From: Oscillospiraceae bacterium
Lineage (GTDB): Bacteria > Bacillota > Clostridia > Oscillospirales > Oscillospiraceae
DNA length: 51,412 bases
Direction of reading: 5' to 3'
Assembly: GCA_017412765.1 (NCBI GenBank)
Contig: JAFPWN010000002.1
Location: 1 to 51,412 of the forward strand
Numbering within the stretch: position 1 is the first letter of the stretch; each line of letters opens with the position of its first letter. This document shows positions 9,970 through 15,471 of this stretch, piece after piece. The translations under genes were made by a program, and so were the position numbers. The notes beneath the pieces are model-generated. The model saw nothing but the letters and a program-made list of their open reading frames with translations. It was not told where the DNA came from and searched no databases.

Positions 9970-11850
9970 TCAGCCCTTCAGAACCTGAAGCGCGCGGTAG
10001 GTTACGGCTATCGCCTGTTCGACAGTCAGCGCGTCATCCGGCTTGAACTCGCCGGTGCCAACGCCCTTGAACACGTTTACAGTTGCCGCCCAGCCGAGCT
10101 CGGAATCCACCCAATGACCGCTCACGTCGGTGAAGGAATGCGTATAGCCGGAGGTGTCGGTACCGAGAAGCTTTGCACATCTCGTAAGAATTGCCGCAAG
10201 CTGGGCGCGGGTAAGACTGTAATCGGGTCCGAATTTGCTGTTTCCAATTCCTTTTATAAGTCCGAGAGCGTTCGCGGCGAACACGTTGTAATCCGTCGTG
10301 TCTGTGAATGCGCTCCAATCAATTTCCGCGCCTTTTTCGCTGAGAAGAGCAGAAATGCTCTTGCCGCTTGCCTCGGTAATAAGGTTTATAAACAGCTCTG
10401 CAACGTCCGCGCGGCTTACCTCAGAGGTGTAGTTCTTCTGGAGATTTTCAGGAACGAGCCCAAGCTCTATTGCCGCCGAAACTTCTTCGACAGCCCACGA
10501 CGACGGCGTTTCCTCCGTAGTGCCGTCACTCTCGGTGGTGCCGGAGAGTGCCGTTCCGTTCACATAGAGCGTATAGCCGTTTGAGATCACGTTTGCTGCC
10601 GAGCCGGTGAAGGAGGAGATATAGGTATCTGCGGTGAGCACCCATTTAGAAGTGCTGTCGAGCGTAACGCTGACCTTTCCGACGGAGCTTGACACGCTTG
10701 TTCCCTTGCCGTTTGTGATACTGCCGCTGATTGCGCCGGTATAAACAGAGCCGTCAGCGAGGCTCATTGTGAGCGTGGAATCGCTTCCGACGAGGATAGT
10801 ACCCTCGAGAGTCTGAGCGTCGGCATTAAGGGCGGCGATATTGCTTCCTCCGCTCCAGCCGTCGTCGCAGACGGAGAGAAGCACATTGTCAGCATCGTTG
10901 TTCACGATGTCAACGCCTGACAGCGTGATGACTGCGTTGGTGTTGGTAACATGGAAAACGTGACCGTTATTGCTTGTCAGCGTGCCGCCGGTCATAGCGA
11001 AGTGGGATGAGCCGCTGTCGGCGTCGCCGGACATCGACTGGTAGATCATGATCGTATCATAGAAGGTCGCGTTGCCGTTCAAGGCGTTGTTCGTCGCGGT
11101 CAGATCGCAGTCTGTAAGCTCGATGGAGCCGGTGCCTTCGATGCAGACGCCCTCTGATTTATTGGAAACAAGAGTCGCGTTCGATACCTTTACGTCTGCT
11201 GTTGAATAGATCGCCGGCGAGCCAAGACCGTTCGATGTGTATGTTCCGCCGTCAACCGTTACCCATCCGCCGCCCCGGTCAGTCCTTATGGGTGCAGACG
11301 AGCCGCCGGAGGTGGTAATTGTCAGATTGGTCGCATTCGTAGTGCCGCCGTAGGTCGTCATTATGCCGCCGGAGCCGCTTCCGGTTGTGGTGATGACCGT
11401 GTCGGAGATGTTTACCGTCGTACCGTCGCCCGTTGCGTTAGTTGAGCCGCTGTTTGCGCCGTAGGAGAATACGCCGTTCGCGCCTGCGGCAGTTGTGGTG
11501 ATCGTGCCGCCCGAAATATTCGCCGTTCCGCCGCCCTTAACCATCACGCCGGAGTTGATTCCATAGAAGCTGTAATTATCCGAAGCGGATGTTCCGCCGG
11601 ATTTTGTGACCGTCGGGCTTGTGATCGTGACCGTGCCGGTGGTATTTATAAGAAGCGCGTTCTCATCGGCGGAGGTCGAGGTATATGTTTTTCCGCTCTC
11701 GGTAGTCGATGAGGTTATGGTATTGGCGCCTGACCACGAAACCGAGCTTGAGCTGCCTCCTCCCGGAGGCGCGGCAAATGCGCCCGCCGCCATTGAGGCG
11801 CAGAGGGCGATTGCGGATAAAATGCTGATTGCTTTCCTTGCGATTTTCAT
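9970..11850 (-). CDS. SLH-anchored surface protein with a beta-helix-like repeat region
   Basis: A 626-residue secreted protein. A signal peptide (MKIARKAISILSAIALCAS, ending near AFA at residue 27) leads into about 410 residues rich in Thr, Ser, Gly, Asn and Val. Short strands of this region (TVTITSPTV, TANISGGTIT, TTVNISDTVIT) look like rungs of a right-handed parallel beta-helix. The C-terminus holds three SLH modules (about 455-626), for example FTDVSGHWVDSELGWAATVN, which bind pyruvylated secondary cell-wall polymer. It follows rsgI by 15 bases with AGGAGG eight bases before the ATG, so it is probably third in a sigI-rsgI-slh operon. The ligand is unknown; adhesion or polysaccharide binding is inference. 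Confidence 0.85.
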   Translation of the reverse strand: MKIARKAISILSAIALCASMAAGAFAAPPGGGSSSSVSWSGANTITSSTTESGKTYTSTSADENALLINTTGTVTITSPTVTKSGGTSASDNYSFYGINSGVMVKGGGTANISGGTITTTAAGANGVFSYGANSGSTNATGDGTTVNISDTVITTTGSGSGGIMTTYGGTTNATNLTITTSGGSSAPIRTDRGGGWVTVDGGTYTSNGLGSPAIYSTADVKVSNATLVSNKSEGVCIEGTGSIELTDCDLTATNNALNGNATFYDTIMIYQSMSGDADSGSSHFAMTGGTLTSNNGHVFHVTNTNAVITLSGVDIVNNDADNVLLSVCDDGWSGGSNIAALNADAQTLEGTILVGSDSTLTMSLADGSVYTGAISGSITNGKGTSVSSSVGKVSVTLDSTSKWVLTADTYISSFTGSAANVISNGYTLYVNGTALSGTTESDGTTEETPSSWAVEEVSAAIELGLVPENLQKNYTSEVSRADVAELFINLITEASGKSISALLSEKGAEIDWSAFTDTTDYNVFAANALGLIKGIGNSKFGPDYSLTRAQLAAILTRCAKLLGTDTSGYTHSFTDVSGHWVDSELGWAATVNVFKGVGTGEFKPDDALTVEQAIAVTYRALQVLKG

Positions 11851-11865: not shown

Positions 11866-12819
11866 TTATTTTATGTTATCCGGGTTTGGCTCCCCTAAGG
11901 GATGCTCGCCGGGCATTTCTATTGTCGGCATTTCGGGTCGCTCTCCCATAGGCGGCTCACCGAACTCCGGCTCTTCCTGCATCTCCGGACTTTCACCAAA
12001 TTCATTCGCCGGATTCGGCATCTCCGGTCTCTCACCCATTGGCTCCTCCGGGATTTCGGGTCGCTCTCCCATAGGCGGCTCCGCTGCGTTTTCTTGTAGG
12101 GGCTCTTCTCCGTGCCCGCCCATCGGCGTCTCCGGCGTCTCCGGTCTCTCTCCCATCTGAGGCTCCTCCGTGCTCTCTTGTAGGGGTTCTTCTCCGTACC
12201 CGCCCATAGGCTCAGGCGGGTTTTCCTCGGTGAAGCGCTCAAAAGCGAGCCTGCCGCCGCTCATTTCGAGCCTTTCCGCCTCACTCCGCTCATCGCGGCT
12301 TACCTCAAAGGTGTGAACCTCAGTGCTTTCGTCCACCGCCTCGCGGACTGCGCTTTCAATTTTCTCCGCCGCTCCGCTGTCCGAGGTAACTCCGGCGATG
12401 ACCGGCTCAGAAGGCTCATCCTTCTTCATATGTGTGACGGCATCCTTCACGGCGTCGTCCATTTTTTTGCCCCGTATATCTTTTTCAAGCTCCAGAGCTA
12501 TATCTCCAGACTTGTCGTTCATCGGCTTTACTCCGATTACTCTGCCGAGGTGGTTTACGGATACCTCAACGCTCGTCTCACCCACATCGAGGGAGACGTA
12601 CTCCGCGGCATCCACGCTCAAATATGCGTAAGAGCCGCCGAGCAGCGCAAGCGCTATCACCGCCGCCGCAGCAGAGCGAAGCCAGGGGCTTCGGCGTTTA
12701 CGGACTGAAAATTCTATCGTATCTCCGACCTCGCATCGGAGCGTGGTGGTATCGAAAACGCCGTCCTCACGCAGGACTGCGGCAAGACCGCCGCGCTTTT
12801 CAAGCACTATCGCTTTCAT
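11866..12819 (-). CDS. rsgI: RsgI-like membrane anti-sigma factor with a disordered extracellular tail
   Basis: A 317-residue partner of SigI. Residues 1-40 form the cytoplasmic RsgI N-terminal domain, residues about 49-67 are one membrane segment (AAAAVIALALLGGSYAYL), and residues about 70-195 are the conserved juxtamembrane extracellular domain (starting near EYVSLDVGETSVEVSVN). From about residue 205 the tail is low complexity, rich in Pro, Glu, Met and Gly with repeated PMGERPEMP units. In Clostridium thermocellum the RsgI C-termini often carry carbohydrate-binding modules; in Bacillus subtilis the tail is intrinsically disordered. This one is of the second kind. Its ATG overlaps the sigI stop (ATGA), with GGAGG seven bases upstream. 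Confidence 0.85.
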   Translation of the reverse strand: MKAIVLEKRGGLAAVLREDGVFDTTTLRCEVGDTIEFSVRKRRSPWLRSAAAAVIALALLGGSYAYLSVDAAEYVSLDVGETSVEVSVNHLGRVIGVKPMNDKSGDIALELEKDIRGKKMDDAVKDAVTHMKKDEPSEPVIAGVTSDSGAAEKIESAVREAVDESTEVHTFEVSRDERSEAERLEMSGGRLAFERFTEENPPEPMGGYGEEPLQESTEEPQMGERPETPETPMGGHGEEPLQENAAEPPMGERPEIPEEPMGERPEMPNPANEFGESPEMQEEPEFGEPPMGERPEMPTIEMPGEHPLGEPNPDNIK

Positions 12820-13532
12820 CCGTTTTCCTCCTTAACATAGGATAAGTACGACGCAAGTATCGGAAAATCTCCGTCAAGTATCTCCGCCGAGGCGATTATA
12901 TATTTCCTGTGGCGGTCGAGTATCTTACGGACAACGCCGCTTTTTTCGCTGAGCTCCTTAACGGGAAGAAGCCTTCTGAGCCTCATCGCCGCCATCAGAA
13001 TCACGCTTGCGACGAGCGTTCTTATAGCTGTGCCGCAGCTTCGCTTCGTCTTTTCCGCCTTTGGGGAAGCCTCCGCAAGGTCGAAGAACGAAAAGCCGTA
13101 CTCCGAAAGAATCTCCTGCATTTCCGCGATCTCCTCATGGGCCTTTGCGCCGGAGTCGTCAGCCATTGACACCTCGGCGACCCTTTGGCGAACGCTGAGT
13201 TCAAGCGCGCCCGACTCGTCCTCCTCAAGCTCGCCCTCAAAGGCGGCGGGTCGGACAGTCAGCTCTGCGCTGTGCCGTCCCTCGCTCCTCATATAATCCG
13301 TGAGCCTGCGGCGAATGACCACCGAGGCGATGGAGCGAAACGAGCCCTTCTCGCCGTCGAAGCCTTCGACCGCCTCATTGAACGCCATAAGCGCTATCGA
13401 CCACTCATCGTCCGACTCCGTTATAAATCTGCCGCACGTTCTTGACGCGAGAGTGAGGATCCATCTTTTATTCTCCCGGACAAGCTCCTCAAAGTCGAGT
13501 CCACTGTAATTTGCGCCGAGCACAAGCTCCAT
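12816..13532 (-). CDS. sigI: RNA polymerase sigma factor SigI
   Basis: A 238-residue sigma-70-like factor of the SigI family. The region-2 core is clear: ESDDEWSIALMAFNEAVEGF, then KGSFRSIASVVIRRRLTDYMRSE. The C-terminal part (KELSEKSGVVRKILDRHRKYIIA) is the DNA-reading helix-turn-helix typical of SigI. SigI factors are held by RsgI at the membrane and respond to heat, cell-wall or polysaccharide signals. I prefer the ATG at 13532, about eight bases after AAGGCGG; a GTG at 13541 is possible. It is translationally coupled to rsgI and has a SigI-like promoter of its own, which suggests autoregulation. Confidence 0.88.
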   Translation of the reverse strand: MELVLGANYSGLDFEELVRENKRWILTLASRTCGRFITESDDEWSIALMAFNEAVEGFDGEKGSFRSIASVVIRRRLTDYMRSEGRHSAELTVRPAAFEGELEEDESGALELSVRQRVAEVSMADDSGAKAHEEIAEMQEILSEYGFSFFDLAEASPKAEKTKRSCGTAIRTLVASVILMAAMRLRRLLPVKELSEKSGVVRKILDRHRKYIIASAEILDGDFPILASYLSYVKEENG

Positions 13533-13609
13533 TATCGTCACCGCCTTCCTTGTTTTTCCTAAATAATAAGGTCAGCGCCTTAAACGGGGCTTAATTTGCT
13601 ATTATTTTA

Positions 13610-13640
13610 TTCGGTAAAGCCGAGAAATTTTTCGGGGTCG
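13610..13640 (-). promoter_or_regulatory. SigI-type promoter of sigI-rsgI-slh
   Basis: On the minus strand CGACCCC (13634-13640) is followed, 20 bases after ACCCC, by CGAA (13610-13613) and then TAAAATAAT. ACCCC and CGAA match the -35 and -10 elements described for Bacillus subtilis SigI promoters. The leader before the ATG at 13532 would be about 70 nt. Confidence 0.65.
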
Positions 13641-13656
13641 AAAAAAGTTTTTGCAG

Positions 13657-13687
13657 CGACCCCATTTTTTGCGCCGCTCTCTGCGAA
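13657..13687 (+). promoter_or_regulatory. SigI-type promoter of the secreted beta-helix gene
   Basis: CGACCCC (13657-13663), then CGAA (13684-13687) exactly 20 bases after ACCCC, the same spacing as the divergent promoter on the other strand. The two CGACCCC elements face away from each other and are 16 bp apart. The leader before the ATG at 13744 would be about 50 nt. Confidence 0.65.
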
Positions 13688-13743
13688 TCAATAGGCAGAA
13701 GGAAAAAATTCCTCGAAAATCAAAACGAAAGGCGGTAAATAAA

Positions 13744-15471
13744 ATGAAAAAAACAGTTATTAAATCAGCGGCGGCAGTAGGTGTTTGCCTCGCGCTCGCA
13801 GTCGGAGCGGTTTCAGTCGGAGCGGCAGGCTTCGGACGCGCATTAAATAATGAGAAGCAGCCGGAGGCTTTCGACGGCGCTCCCCAGCAGGAGATGCAGC
13901 TTAACTGCCAGCAGCCCGGCGGTATGCAAACACAGTTCGCGGGTCAGCAGCAGCCGGGCGGTCAGCCGATGGACTTCGGCGGAATGCAGATGCAGCCGGG
14001 CGGAGGCTTCGGAATGCAGCCTATGACGCCAAATCAGCAGATGGGCGGCTTCGGTCAGGACTCCCAGCTCCCCGCTATGCCAAGCGACAACGGCGGCTTT
14101 GGTCAGGACTCCCAGCTCCCCGCCATGCCGAGCGACAACGGCGGCTTCAATCAGAACAGCCGGCTTCCCGCAATGCCGGGCGACAACGGCAGCTTAAATC
14201 AGAACTCCCAGCTCCCTGCTATGCCGAGCGATAACGGCGGCTTCAATCAGAACTCCCAGCTCCCCGCTATGCCGAGCGATAACGGCGGCTTCGGTCAGAA
14301 CAGCCAGCTCCCCACTATGCCGGGTGAAAACGGCGGCTTCAATCAGAACTCCCAGCTCCCCGCTATGCCGGGTCAGCAGAACGTCGCGGTGCAGTCCTCC
14401 GCATCCGAGGCAGGTGAGGTTGTCGAGGGCGTGACATCGAACAGTGCCATGAACCTCGAGGCGGATTACGCAAACGCAGTCACCTACATGATGACCGACG
14501 AGAATAACTCTGTCAAAATAACCGAGTCCGGCACCTACATCGTTACCGGCTCCTGCGCCGACGGCAATATCACAGTCAAAAAGGGCACGACCGGCGTAGT
14601 TCTCGTTCTCAAGGATCTCAACCTCGCCTCCTCTACCGGAGCGGCGGTATCTCTCAACAAAGAGAGCGAGGTCAAGGTCATTATTGAAGGTACAGTAACC
14701 CTCACCGACAACGAAGACCCCGCCGACGAGGAGTCCACGGACGCCGACGTTGCAGACGCTTACGACGGCGCGGCGCTCAAGGTAAAGGCAAACAGCGCCG
14801 CCTATATCGCAGGCTCCGGCACTCTGAACATCGTCGGCAACGCCAAGAACGGCATCAAGGGCGGCGATGACGCGAGCATCGTCATTGACGGCGTTACCCT
14901 CAACGTCACCGCTGTAAACGACGGCATCAATGTAAACTATGACCTTGCAATTCTCAGCGGCACCGTCACAGTCTCCGCTTCTGACGATGCGATCCACGCA
15001 GACCACATTCTCACCATCGGCGCAGACAGCACAAATCCCACCGTCACAGTCAAGCAGAGCACCGAGGGTCTTGAGGGAACCGTAGTCAACGTTGTGAGCG
15101 GTAAAATCACCATCAATTCCTCTGACGACGCAATCAACGCGGCAAATGCCGACGGAGCCTACGAGGGCGTGCTCGGTTATTCCGTGAATGTTACGGGCGG
15201 CAGCGTCACGATTATCTCCGGCGGCGACGGCGTTGACTCCAACGGAAACGTAAATCTCATTTCCGGCACTATGAGCATCCGCAGTTCGTCCGTCGGCGGC
15301 GAAGCCGGCATCGACTACGACGGCAGCTGTTACATCTCATCCGATTTCGTTCTCAATAATCAGAGCGGCGTATCAGGTCCCGACATGATGGGCGGTATGA
15401 TGGGCGGTATGCCCGGAGAAATGGGCAGCATGGGTTCCTTCGGCGGTCAGATGGGCGGATTCGGAAGATAA
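13744..15471 (+). CDS. Secreted carbohydrate-binding beta-helix protein (Cthe_2159/DUF4353-like)
   Basis: A 575-residue exported protein. A signal peptide (MKKTVIKSAAAVGVCLALAV) is followed by a Gln/Gly/Pro/Met-rich stretch with seven tandem 16-residue repeats (GGFGQDSQLPAMPSDN and variants, residues about 101-212). Residues about 235-540 are a beta-helix-like domain with rungs such as SGTLNIVGNAKNGIKGGDD and SGTVTVSASDDAIHADH. This pattern matches the DUF4353 family, whose member Cthe_2159 binds cellulose and acidic sugars. The tail is Gly/Met-rich. I chose the ATG at 13744, eight bases after AAAGGCGG and in front of the signal peptide. It is divergent from sigI and shares a SigI-type promoter motif, so it is probably in the SigI regulon. 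Confidence 0.85.
   Translation: MKKTVIKSAAAVGVCLALAVGAVSVGAAGFGRALNNEKQPEAFDGAPQQEMQLNCQQPGGMQTQFAGQQQPGGQPMDFGGMQMQPGGGFGMQPMTPNQQMGGFGQDSQLPAMPSDNGGFGQDSQLPAMPSDNGGFNQNSRLPAMPGDNGSLNQNSQLPAMPSDNGGFNQNSQLPAMPSDNGGFGQNSQLPTMPGENGGFNQNSQLPAMPGQQNVAVQSSASEAGEVVEGVTSNSAMNLEADYANAVTYMMTDENNSVKITESGTYIVTGSCADGNITVKKGTTGVVLVLKDLNLASSTGAAVSLNKESEVKVIIEGTVTLTDNEDPADEESTDADVADAYDGAALKVKANSAAYIAGSGTLNIVGNAKNGIKGGDDASIVIDGVTLNVTAVNDGINVNYDLAILSGTVTVSASDDAIHADHILTIGADSTNPTVTVKQSTEGLEGTVVNVVSGKITINSSDDAINAANADGAYEGVLGYSVNVTGGSVTIISGGDGVDSNGNVNLISGTMSIRSSSVGGEAGIDYDGSCYISSDFVLNNQSGVSGPDMMGGMMGGMPGEMGSMGSFGGQMGGFGR
14044..14379 (+). repeat. Seven 48-bp tandem repeats inside the beta-helix gene
   Basis: Seven in-frame units of 48 bp encode variants of GGFGQDSQLPAMPSDN. 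The variation (Gly/Asn at position 4, Asp/Asn at 6, Ser/Gly at 14) is scattered among units, which suggests repeated duplication and exchange. The copy number is likely to vary between strains. Confidence 0.9.

Follow-up and report, generated by a model that had tools for sequence, protein, structure and literature searches.

Putative back-to-back SigI promoters between sigI and a Cthe_2159-type surface-protein gene in an Oscillospiraceae bacterium

For Bacillales, one report gives the SigI promoter consensus as ACCCCC--AA-15N-CGAA----T, which implies a distance of 20 bases from ACCCC to CGAA, and describes SigI factors as self-regulating (PMC4711584). The C and G of the SigI -10 motif are placed at -14 and -13 in another study (PMC10575876). 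In SigI6, H171 enters the -35 minor groove, and its change to Ala abolished activity in a B. subtilis system. For the anti-sigma factors, a further report leaves the start of signalling by RsgI8 unidentified and states that the absence of self-cleavage does not completely block RsgI of B. subtilis (PMC12203970). Here we compare these systems with a sigI locus of a rumen-type Oscillospiraceae bacterium (GCA_017412765.1, contig JAFPWN010000002.1), using the whole stretch of 51,412 nucleotides analysed (the window) together with related loci and genomes.

A first-pass annotation had placed a pair of SigI-type promoters between sigI and a secreted beta-helix gene, and profile matches bear out the identity of the neighbors as SigI-like, RsgI_M and PF14262. 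The sigI gene (12816..13541, minus strand) is SigI-like by sequence models: NCBIfam SigI models match its product with a best score of 179 bits and E-values down to 8.5e-53, all below the curated cut-offs, and Pfam Sigma70_r2 scores above its cut-off. Directly 3' lies rsgI (11866..12819, minus strand), encoding an anti-sigma factor with an RsgI_M domain and a Met/Pro/Gly/Glu-rich tail. Only 15 bases after rsgI starts a gene for a secreted SLH-domain protein (9970..11850, minus strand; order kept in two relatives), which probably shares an operon with sigI-rsgI. On the other side, a gene at 13744..15471 (plus strand) encodes a secreted Cthe_2159-type protein with an N-terminal repeat region; it matches PF14262 with 133.4 bits against a gathering score of 25.8, and no solved chain was matched by its sequence at E 0.001. 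Cthe_2159 itself folds as a beta-helix and binds cellulose and pectate. As called, the sigI ORF opens with a GTG (window 13530-13541) just 2 bases from a ribosome-binding-like GGAAGG; because of the distance to this element, the ATG at 13532 looks the likelier start and may be the true one.

Read directly, the plus strand carries CGACCCC at 13657-13663 and, after 20 bases, CGAA at 13684-13687, and the minus strand carries CGACCCC at 13640-13634 and, again after 20 bases, CGAA at 13613-13610. The two outward-pointing heptamers are 16 bp apart, exactly as the annotation had described, and form a perfect inverted repeat (GGGGTCG-N16-CGACCCC); the annotation's assignment of ACCCC and CGAA to SigI -35 and -10 elements agrees in motif and spacing with the published Bacillales consensus. 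The candidate SigI-type promoter of the sigI-rsgI-SLH operon spans 13610..13640 (minus strand; CGACCCC, A-run, CGAA) and that of the Cthe_2159-type gene 13657..13687 (plus strand; CGACCCC, T-run, CGAA); the length of the 16-bp spacer between the heptamers (13641..13656) is kept in three species, and some of its bases vary. On the sigI side the AA of the extended -35 is present and the T of CGAA----T comes one base late; on the Cthe_2159 side that T is in place and TT replaces AA, with a T-run where the published consensus has an A-run. Because the C of the -10 motif sits at -14 in SigI open complexes, transcription is predicted to start at about 13599 (minus strand) and about 13698 (plus strand), so that 99 bp separate the predicted starts and 20 bp the ACCCC boxes.

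The two paired sites are the only ACCCC-N20-CGAA strings on either strand of the whole window. When the 202-bp region 13542-13743 was shuffled 60,000 times with dinucleotides preserved, 18 shuffles contained the string on one strand and 74 on the other, and no shuffle had it on both. Calling this region intergenic assumes that the rightward gene starts at ATG 13744; a TTG start assigned mechanically at 13651 would place the plus-strand site inside the gene. At 13450-13800 we found no sigma-70-type promoters (shuffle mean 0.5) and two terminator-like matches (shuffle mean 0.7).

Close relatives retain this arrangement. Among 34 genomes of the genus, three, counting that of the window, have a SigI of at least 91% identity; in both of the others the genes stand in the same order and the two boxes, each with its 20-base distance, are preserved. 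The conservation that the annotation had called for is therefore present in two of two close relatives with the gene pair, and neither of them has lost a box. Within the window's own genome, the pattern ACCCCNNWWWN14-15CGWA has six matches versus five in the reversed control, the other four all lying within ORFs of at least 246 aa; this count is not above chance, and the argument is built on where the boxes lie and on their conservation. A search for further CGACCCC/CGAA targets in the same genome, also proposed earlier, yielded none: 10 of 11 off-locus matches to CGACCCC-N16-22-CGAA fall within ORFs of at least 188 aa, and the remaining one (L007), in no ORF of at least 100 aa, is a palindrome that we judged to be terminator-like and rejected as a regulon site.

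SigI relatives were identified in 63 of 400 family genomes (E 1e-15). For comparisons among loci we used the best 80 of at least 552 confirmed SigI matches, together with the window; these 80 come mostly from Oscillospiraceae and Lachnospiraceae of the rumen and gut, a minority being from other Clostridia, and they overlap the 400-genome set (L119 is G004 and L120 is G003), so the two sets are not independent. An unbiased dyad search, in which all 4-mer pairs with gaps of 8-30 were counted before sigI in 80 of the 81 regions (one was too short), ranked CCCC-N20-CGAA first, with occurrences in 38 of the 80 regions drawn from the best 80 of at least 552 loci and the window; in five shuffled sets the top pair reached 10 to 15. 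The sites of one genome can also agree in a variant form: CGTA stands at both sites in G220, and N19-CGTA at both in G034, two cases noted outside any systematic count.

The second box can be followed with its gene. Among the best 80 of at least 552 sigI loci and the window, ACCCC-N19/20-CGWA lies upstream of 11 of 13 Cthe_2159-type genes near sigI, the exceptions being L129 and the weak, 25-bit L177, versus 10 of 611 other ORFs; the reversed control gave 0 of 13 and 3 of 611, respectively. SLH genes of the same loci (best 80 of at least 552, plus the window) have no motif of their own (0 of 7). We then have a broader view from profile A2, built from 13 rows of the Cthe_2159 type, with which 23 genes were found in the 400 family genomes at E 1e-80; this search leans to sigI-linked genes because the profile was built mostly from them. 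All 12 genes scoring at least 381 bits, the window's included, carry CGACCCC-N20-CG[A/T]A; the next in-frame ATG was found in 11 cases and follows the box after 56-78 nt. These 12 genes belong to 10 genomes, all of which have sigI (10 of 10, versus 63 of 400 overall). None of the 11 weaker paralogues (at most 307 bits; two of them in sigI genomes) has the box, and the reversed control gave 1 of 23.

Half of the top genes (6 of 12: one each in G338 and G380, two in G405 and two in G112) are on a contig other than that of sigI, which in draft assemblies is no proof of distance from sigI. Outside the 23 genes, the L097 gene (G278) also has the box and lies on a contig other than that of sigI. A separate look at 30 PF14262 loci in 15 genomes found the motif in five, of which L094 and L096 are linked to sigI, L095 and L097 are on other contigs, and L090 has the motif inside a long ORF. 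Motifs, spacing, conservation and association with this gene family are all direct observations. We regard the way the box travels with the gene, to other positions in other genera, as the strongest sign that it would serve the gene and does not belong to the divergent geometry.

Taken together, the two SigI promoters for sigI and the surface-protein gene are very probably real, and SigI probably drives the beta-helix gene as well as the operon to which sigI belongs. With high confidence we favor the reading that they are back-to-back SigI promoters from which SigI, once released by RsgI, would transcribe sigI-rsgI-SLH in one direction and the Cthe_2159-type gene in the other. In the proposed sequence of events, an outside signal would inactivate RsgI and free SigI; SigI with RNA polymerase would read CGACCCC and the A/T run as the -35 element and CGAA as the -10 element; and transcription would proceed one way into sigI-rsgI-SLH and the other way into the gene of the Cthe_2159-type surface protein. 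Binding of the boxes by SigI, control of SigI by RsgI, and the signal are the parts of this scheme that we infer. What SigI switches on is probably a modest response at the cell surface, consisting of the beta-helix protein and the SLH protein.

The divergent geometry is a different matter. The annotation had proposed that SigI activates both genes as one unit, an autoregulated divergent switch. Auto-activation of sigI with co-activation of the beta-helix gene remains the best reading, given the spacing, the relatives and the travelling box; a special divergent switch is not supported, the divergent order of sigI and the beta-helix gene having been seen only in the window and its two relatives. 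The mirror pair with its 16 bp was likewise seen only in these three. At the other loci looked at, the Cthe_2159-type gene lies upstream in the same orientation, follows rsgI or sits on a different contig, and the mirror geometry is, judging from these comparisons, local to the window's lineage.

Both sites could also be real SigI promoters that overlap sterically and compete, making an either/or device in place of joint activation. Given starts separated by 99 bp and ACCCC boxes by 20 bp, the upstream contacts of the two polymerases would be expected to overlap, and the 16-bp length is conserved in three species; in other lineages, however, the promoters are separate, so function does not depend on competition, and we consider this reading unlikely. 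Far less probable is that a dimeric regulator uses GGGGTCG-N16-CGACCCC as an inverted-repeat operator, next to which the CGAA strings occur only by accident: the two heptamers do form a perfect inverted repeat, but before related genes elsewhere a single box stands at a fixed distance from CGWA and needs no mirror partner, and the divergent boxes of one relative (L110) are 86 bp apart. Chance resemblance within an A/T-rich intergenic region, to which a short motif not above its control genome-wide might point, has a negligible probability in view of the shuffles, the recurrence of the motif across genera and the contradicting association of box and gene. The L110 boxes (L110:6747-6894), a second divergent SigI-type pair located upstream of sigI, are flanked by a homologue of the window's SLH protein that has no Pfam domain and by a phage-lysozyme-like gene. 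L167 also has a divergent pair, for which the nearest gene found for the second box is clpP, about 630 bp off.

Apart from the back-to-back promoters, the comparison of loci revealed a SigI-type string within the coding sequence of sigI itself, in 23 of 81 genes (best 80 of at least 552 loci, plus the window); L172, L160, L169 (Mobilitalea sibirica), L178 and L191 are examples, with 18 further sigI loci. The window's sigI lacks this internal form. The string is spelled by the codons NTA CCC CGA AAA ... CAY CGA AAR, encoding VPRK....HRK, and is 74 to 244 nt, mostly about 119 nt, from the called start of the rsgI ORF. The spacer codons vary, and in a few of the 23 strings the first CGA is replaced by CGT or CAA, or the second by CGT. 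By counting along the alignment (chain number is paper number + 1), the residues correspond to S213-K221 of SigI6, in the helix-turn-helix part that reads the -35 element. Codon choice is strongly skewed here. Pro occupies this place in 35 genes (from the best 80 of at least 552 and the window); with expectations taken from these same 35 genes, one Arg position has CGA in 22 of 31 cases (expected 3.7) and the other in 22 of 35 (expected 3.9), while CCC is used in 30 of 35 (expected 9.3) and GTA in 20 of 25 (expected 6.3). Of 109 columns, the two CGA, the CCC and the GTA columns make up four of the five under the strongest constraint.

Internal and upstream copies were not seen together in this set; an upstream box stands, for example, before sigI of Butyrivibrio proteoclasticus (L190). 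Within a reach of about 420 nt before sigI, an upstream box is present in none of the 23 genes with an internal string versus 31 of the 58 others (best 80 of at least 552, plus the window; Fisher p 1.5e-6, a test that ignores relatedness). Leaving out four loci with less than 250 nt upstream gives 0 of 22 versus 30 of 55 with the same p of 1.5e-6 (from the best 80 of at least 552 and the window). The strict motif is neither upstream nor internal in 27 of the 81 genes (best 80 of at least 552, plus the window), of which L126 and L128 have less than 250 nt of sequence before sigI. On a tree of these loci (best 80 of at least 552, plus the window), for which the alignment columns of the trait itself were retained, the internal form requires some 10 changes, of which well-supported branches force six or more, and sister pairs can differ, for example L170 with the internal and L192 with the upstream form. 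A class-wide search found the internal string in 4 of 391 genomes (reversed control 0); all four matches (L199-L202) are in sigI genes whose 3-kb loci show no further box. In L151 and L159 the internal string occurs together with a box before the Cthe_2159-type gene, which indicates that the motif is in use there. It seems fairly likely that SigI feedback has two layouts that swap in evolution, with the promoter either upstream, serving sigI and rsgI, or inside sigI, serving mainly rsgI. If true, the internal copy would be a promoter encoded in the gene of its own reader, and the swap would turn positive into negative feedback. Neither an intragenic nor an internal sigI/rsgI promoter appears as a phrase among the literature matches listed, and we regard the internal string as a stronger side finding.

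The proteins of the window's lineage depart from described SigI and RsgI at two places. The residues with which SigI6 reads the -10 element (R97, R98, D101 and R104) align, by counting, with R78, R79, D82 and R85 of the window's SigI. H171 of SigI6 aligns with A162, and His is absent from this place in all 76 readable rows of 81 (best 80 of at least 552 loci, plus the window); therefore, the -35 element cannot be read exactly as by SigI6. We also looked for a link between the type of run and the residue at the H171 place, where no row has His: of 65 sites outside sigI genes (chance sites included), 23 have an A-rich stretch behind ACCCC, 29 a T-rich one and 13 neither type. In RsgI, 48 of 81 rows have NPS (best 80 of at least 552, plus the window) where the window has DVGETS; of the same 81 rows (best 80 of at least 552, plus the window), NPS is missing in 26 and seven are visibly misaligned. 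RsgI proteins of the window's lineage (L119-L134 and others) have no Asn-Pro at this place, which we take to be the self-cleavage site; if so, the first step of RsgI cleavage in this lineage should differ. A SigI branch lacking the His essential in SigI6 and an RsgI branch lacking Asn-Pro are both suited to the published Bacillus subtilis reporter system.

Other genes behind the motif give some indication of what SigI may control in relatives. Six of 18 proteins run against Pfam are VTC-domain proteins whose genes lie behind a motif (L123, L139, L148, L149, L164 and L095), and one VTC gene behind a SigI-type box has DUF4956 adjoining. Motif-bearing neighbors in L145, L152, L155, L179, L181 and L185 have no, weak or general Pfam matches. 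The window's genome has two VTC genes, at which the patterns used (CGACCCC-N16-22-CGAA and ACCCCNNWWWN14-15CGWA) found no box. CotH, polyphosphate polymerase and DUF4956 genes are named as companions of Gram-positive Pel loci in one study (PMC7112168). A surface-matrix role is a plausible suggestion, because the VTC targets in relatives resemble these companions. If the main reading is correct, Cthe_2159-type surface proteins of rumen and gut Clostridia would thereby be tied to a defined sigma factor, and the box offers a handle for finding the SigI regulon in uncultured genomes.

How does this locus compare with known systems? Control of the Cthe_2159 family (PF14262) by SigI is not among the literature matches listed. 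As with the accessory genes of Gram-positive Pel loci, VTC-domain genes occur in relatives, in one case with DUF4956 adjoining, and here they stand behind SigI-type boxes; the window's genome has VTC genes but no strict box outside ORFs beyond the paired locus. With SigI-RsgI of Bacillus subtilis and other Bacillales, the window shares tandem sigma and anti-sigma genes and the 20-base ACCCC...CGAA before sigI; it adds a second, divergent promoter for the Cthe_2159-type gene, and its promoters have an A/T run of either polarity. The window's SigI resembles by sequence the SigI factors of the Clostridium thermocellum SigI/RsgI systems for cellulosome regulation, with SigI1 (8i23) and SigI6 (8i24) as solved relatives, but it has Ala in place of the minor-groove His of SigI6. 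The C. thermocellum consensus has an A-tract, 13-14 N, CGWA and a variable specificity region, unlike the window, and the window's RsgI, unlike that of C. thermocellum, has RsgI_M alone by Pfam, without a sugar-binding domain. Carbohydrate-related targets, putative in the window, are common to the C. thermocellum SigI sets and the window.
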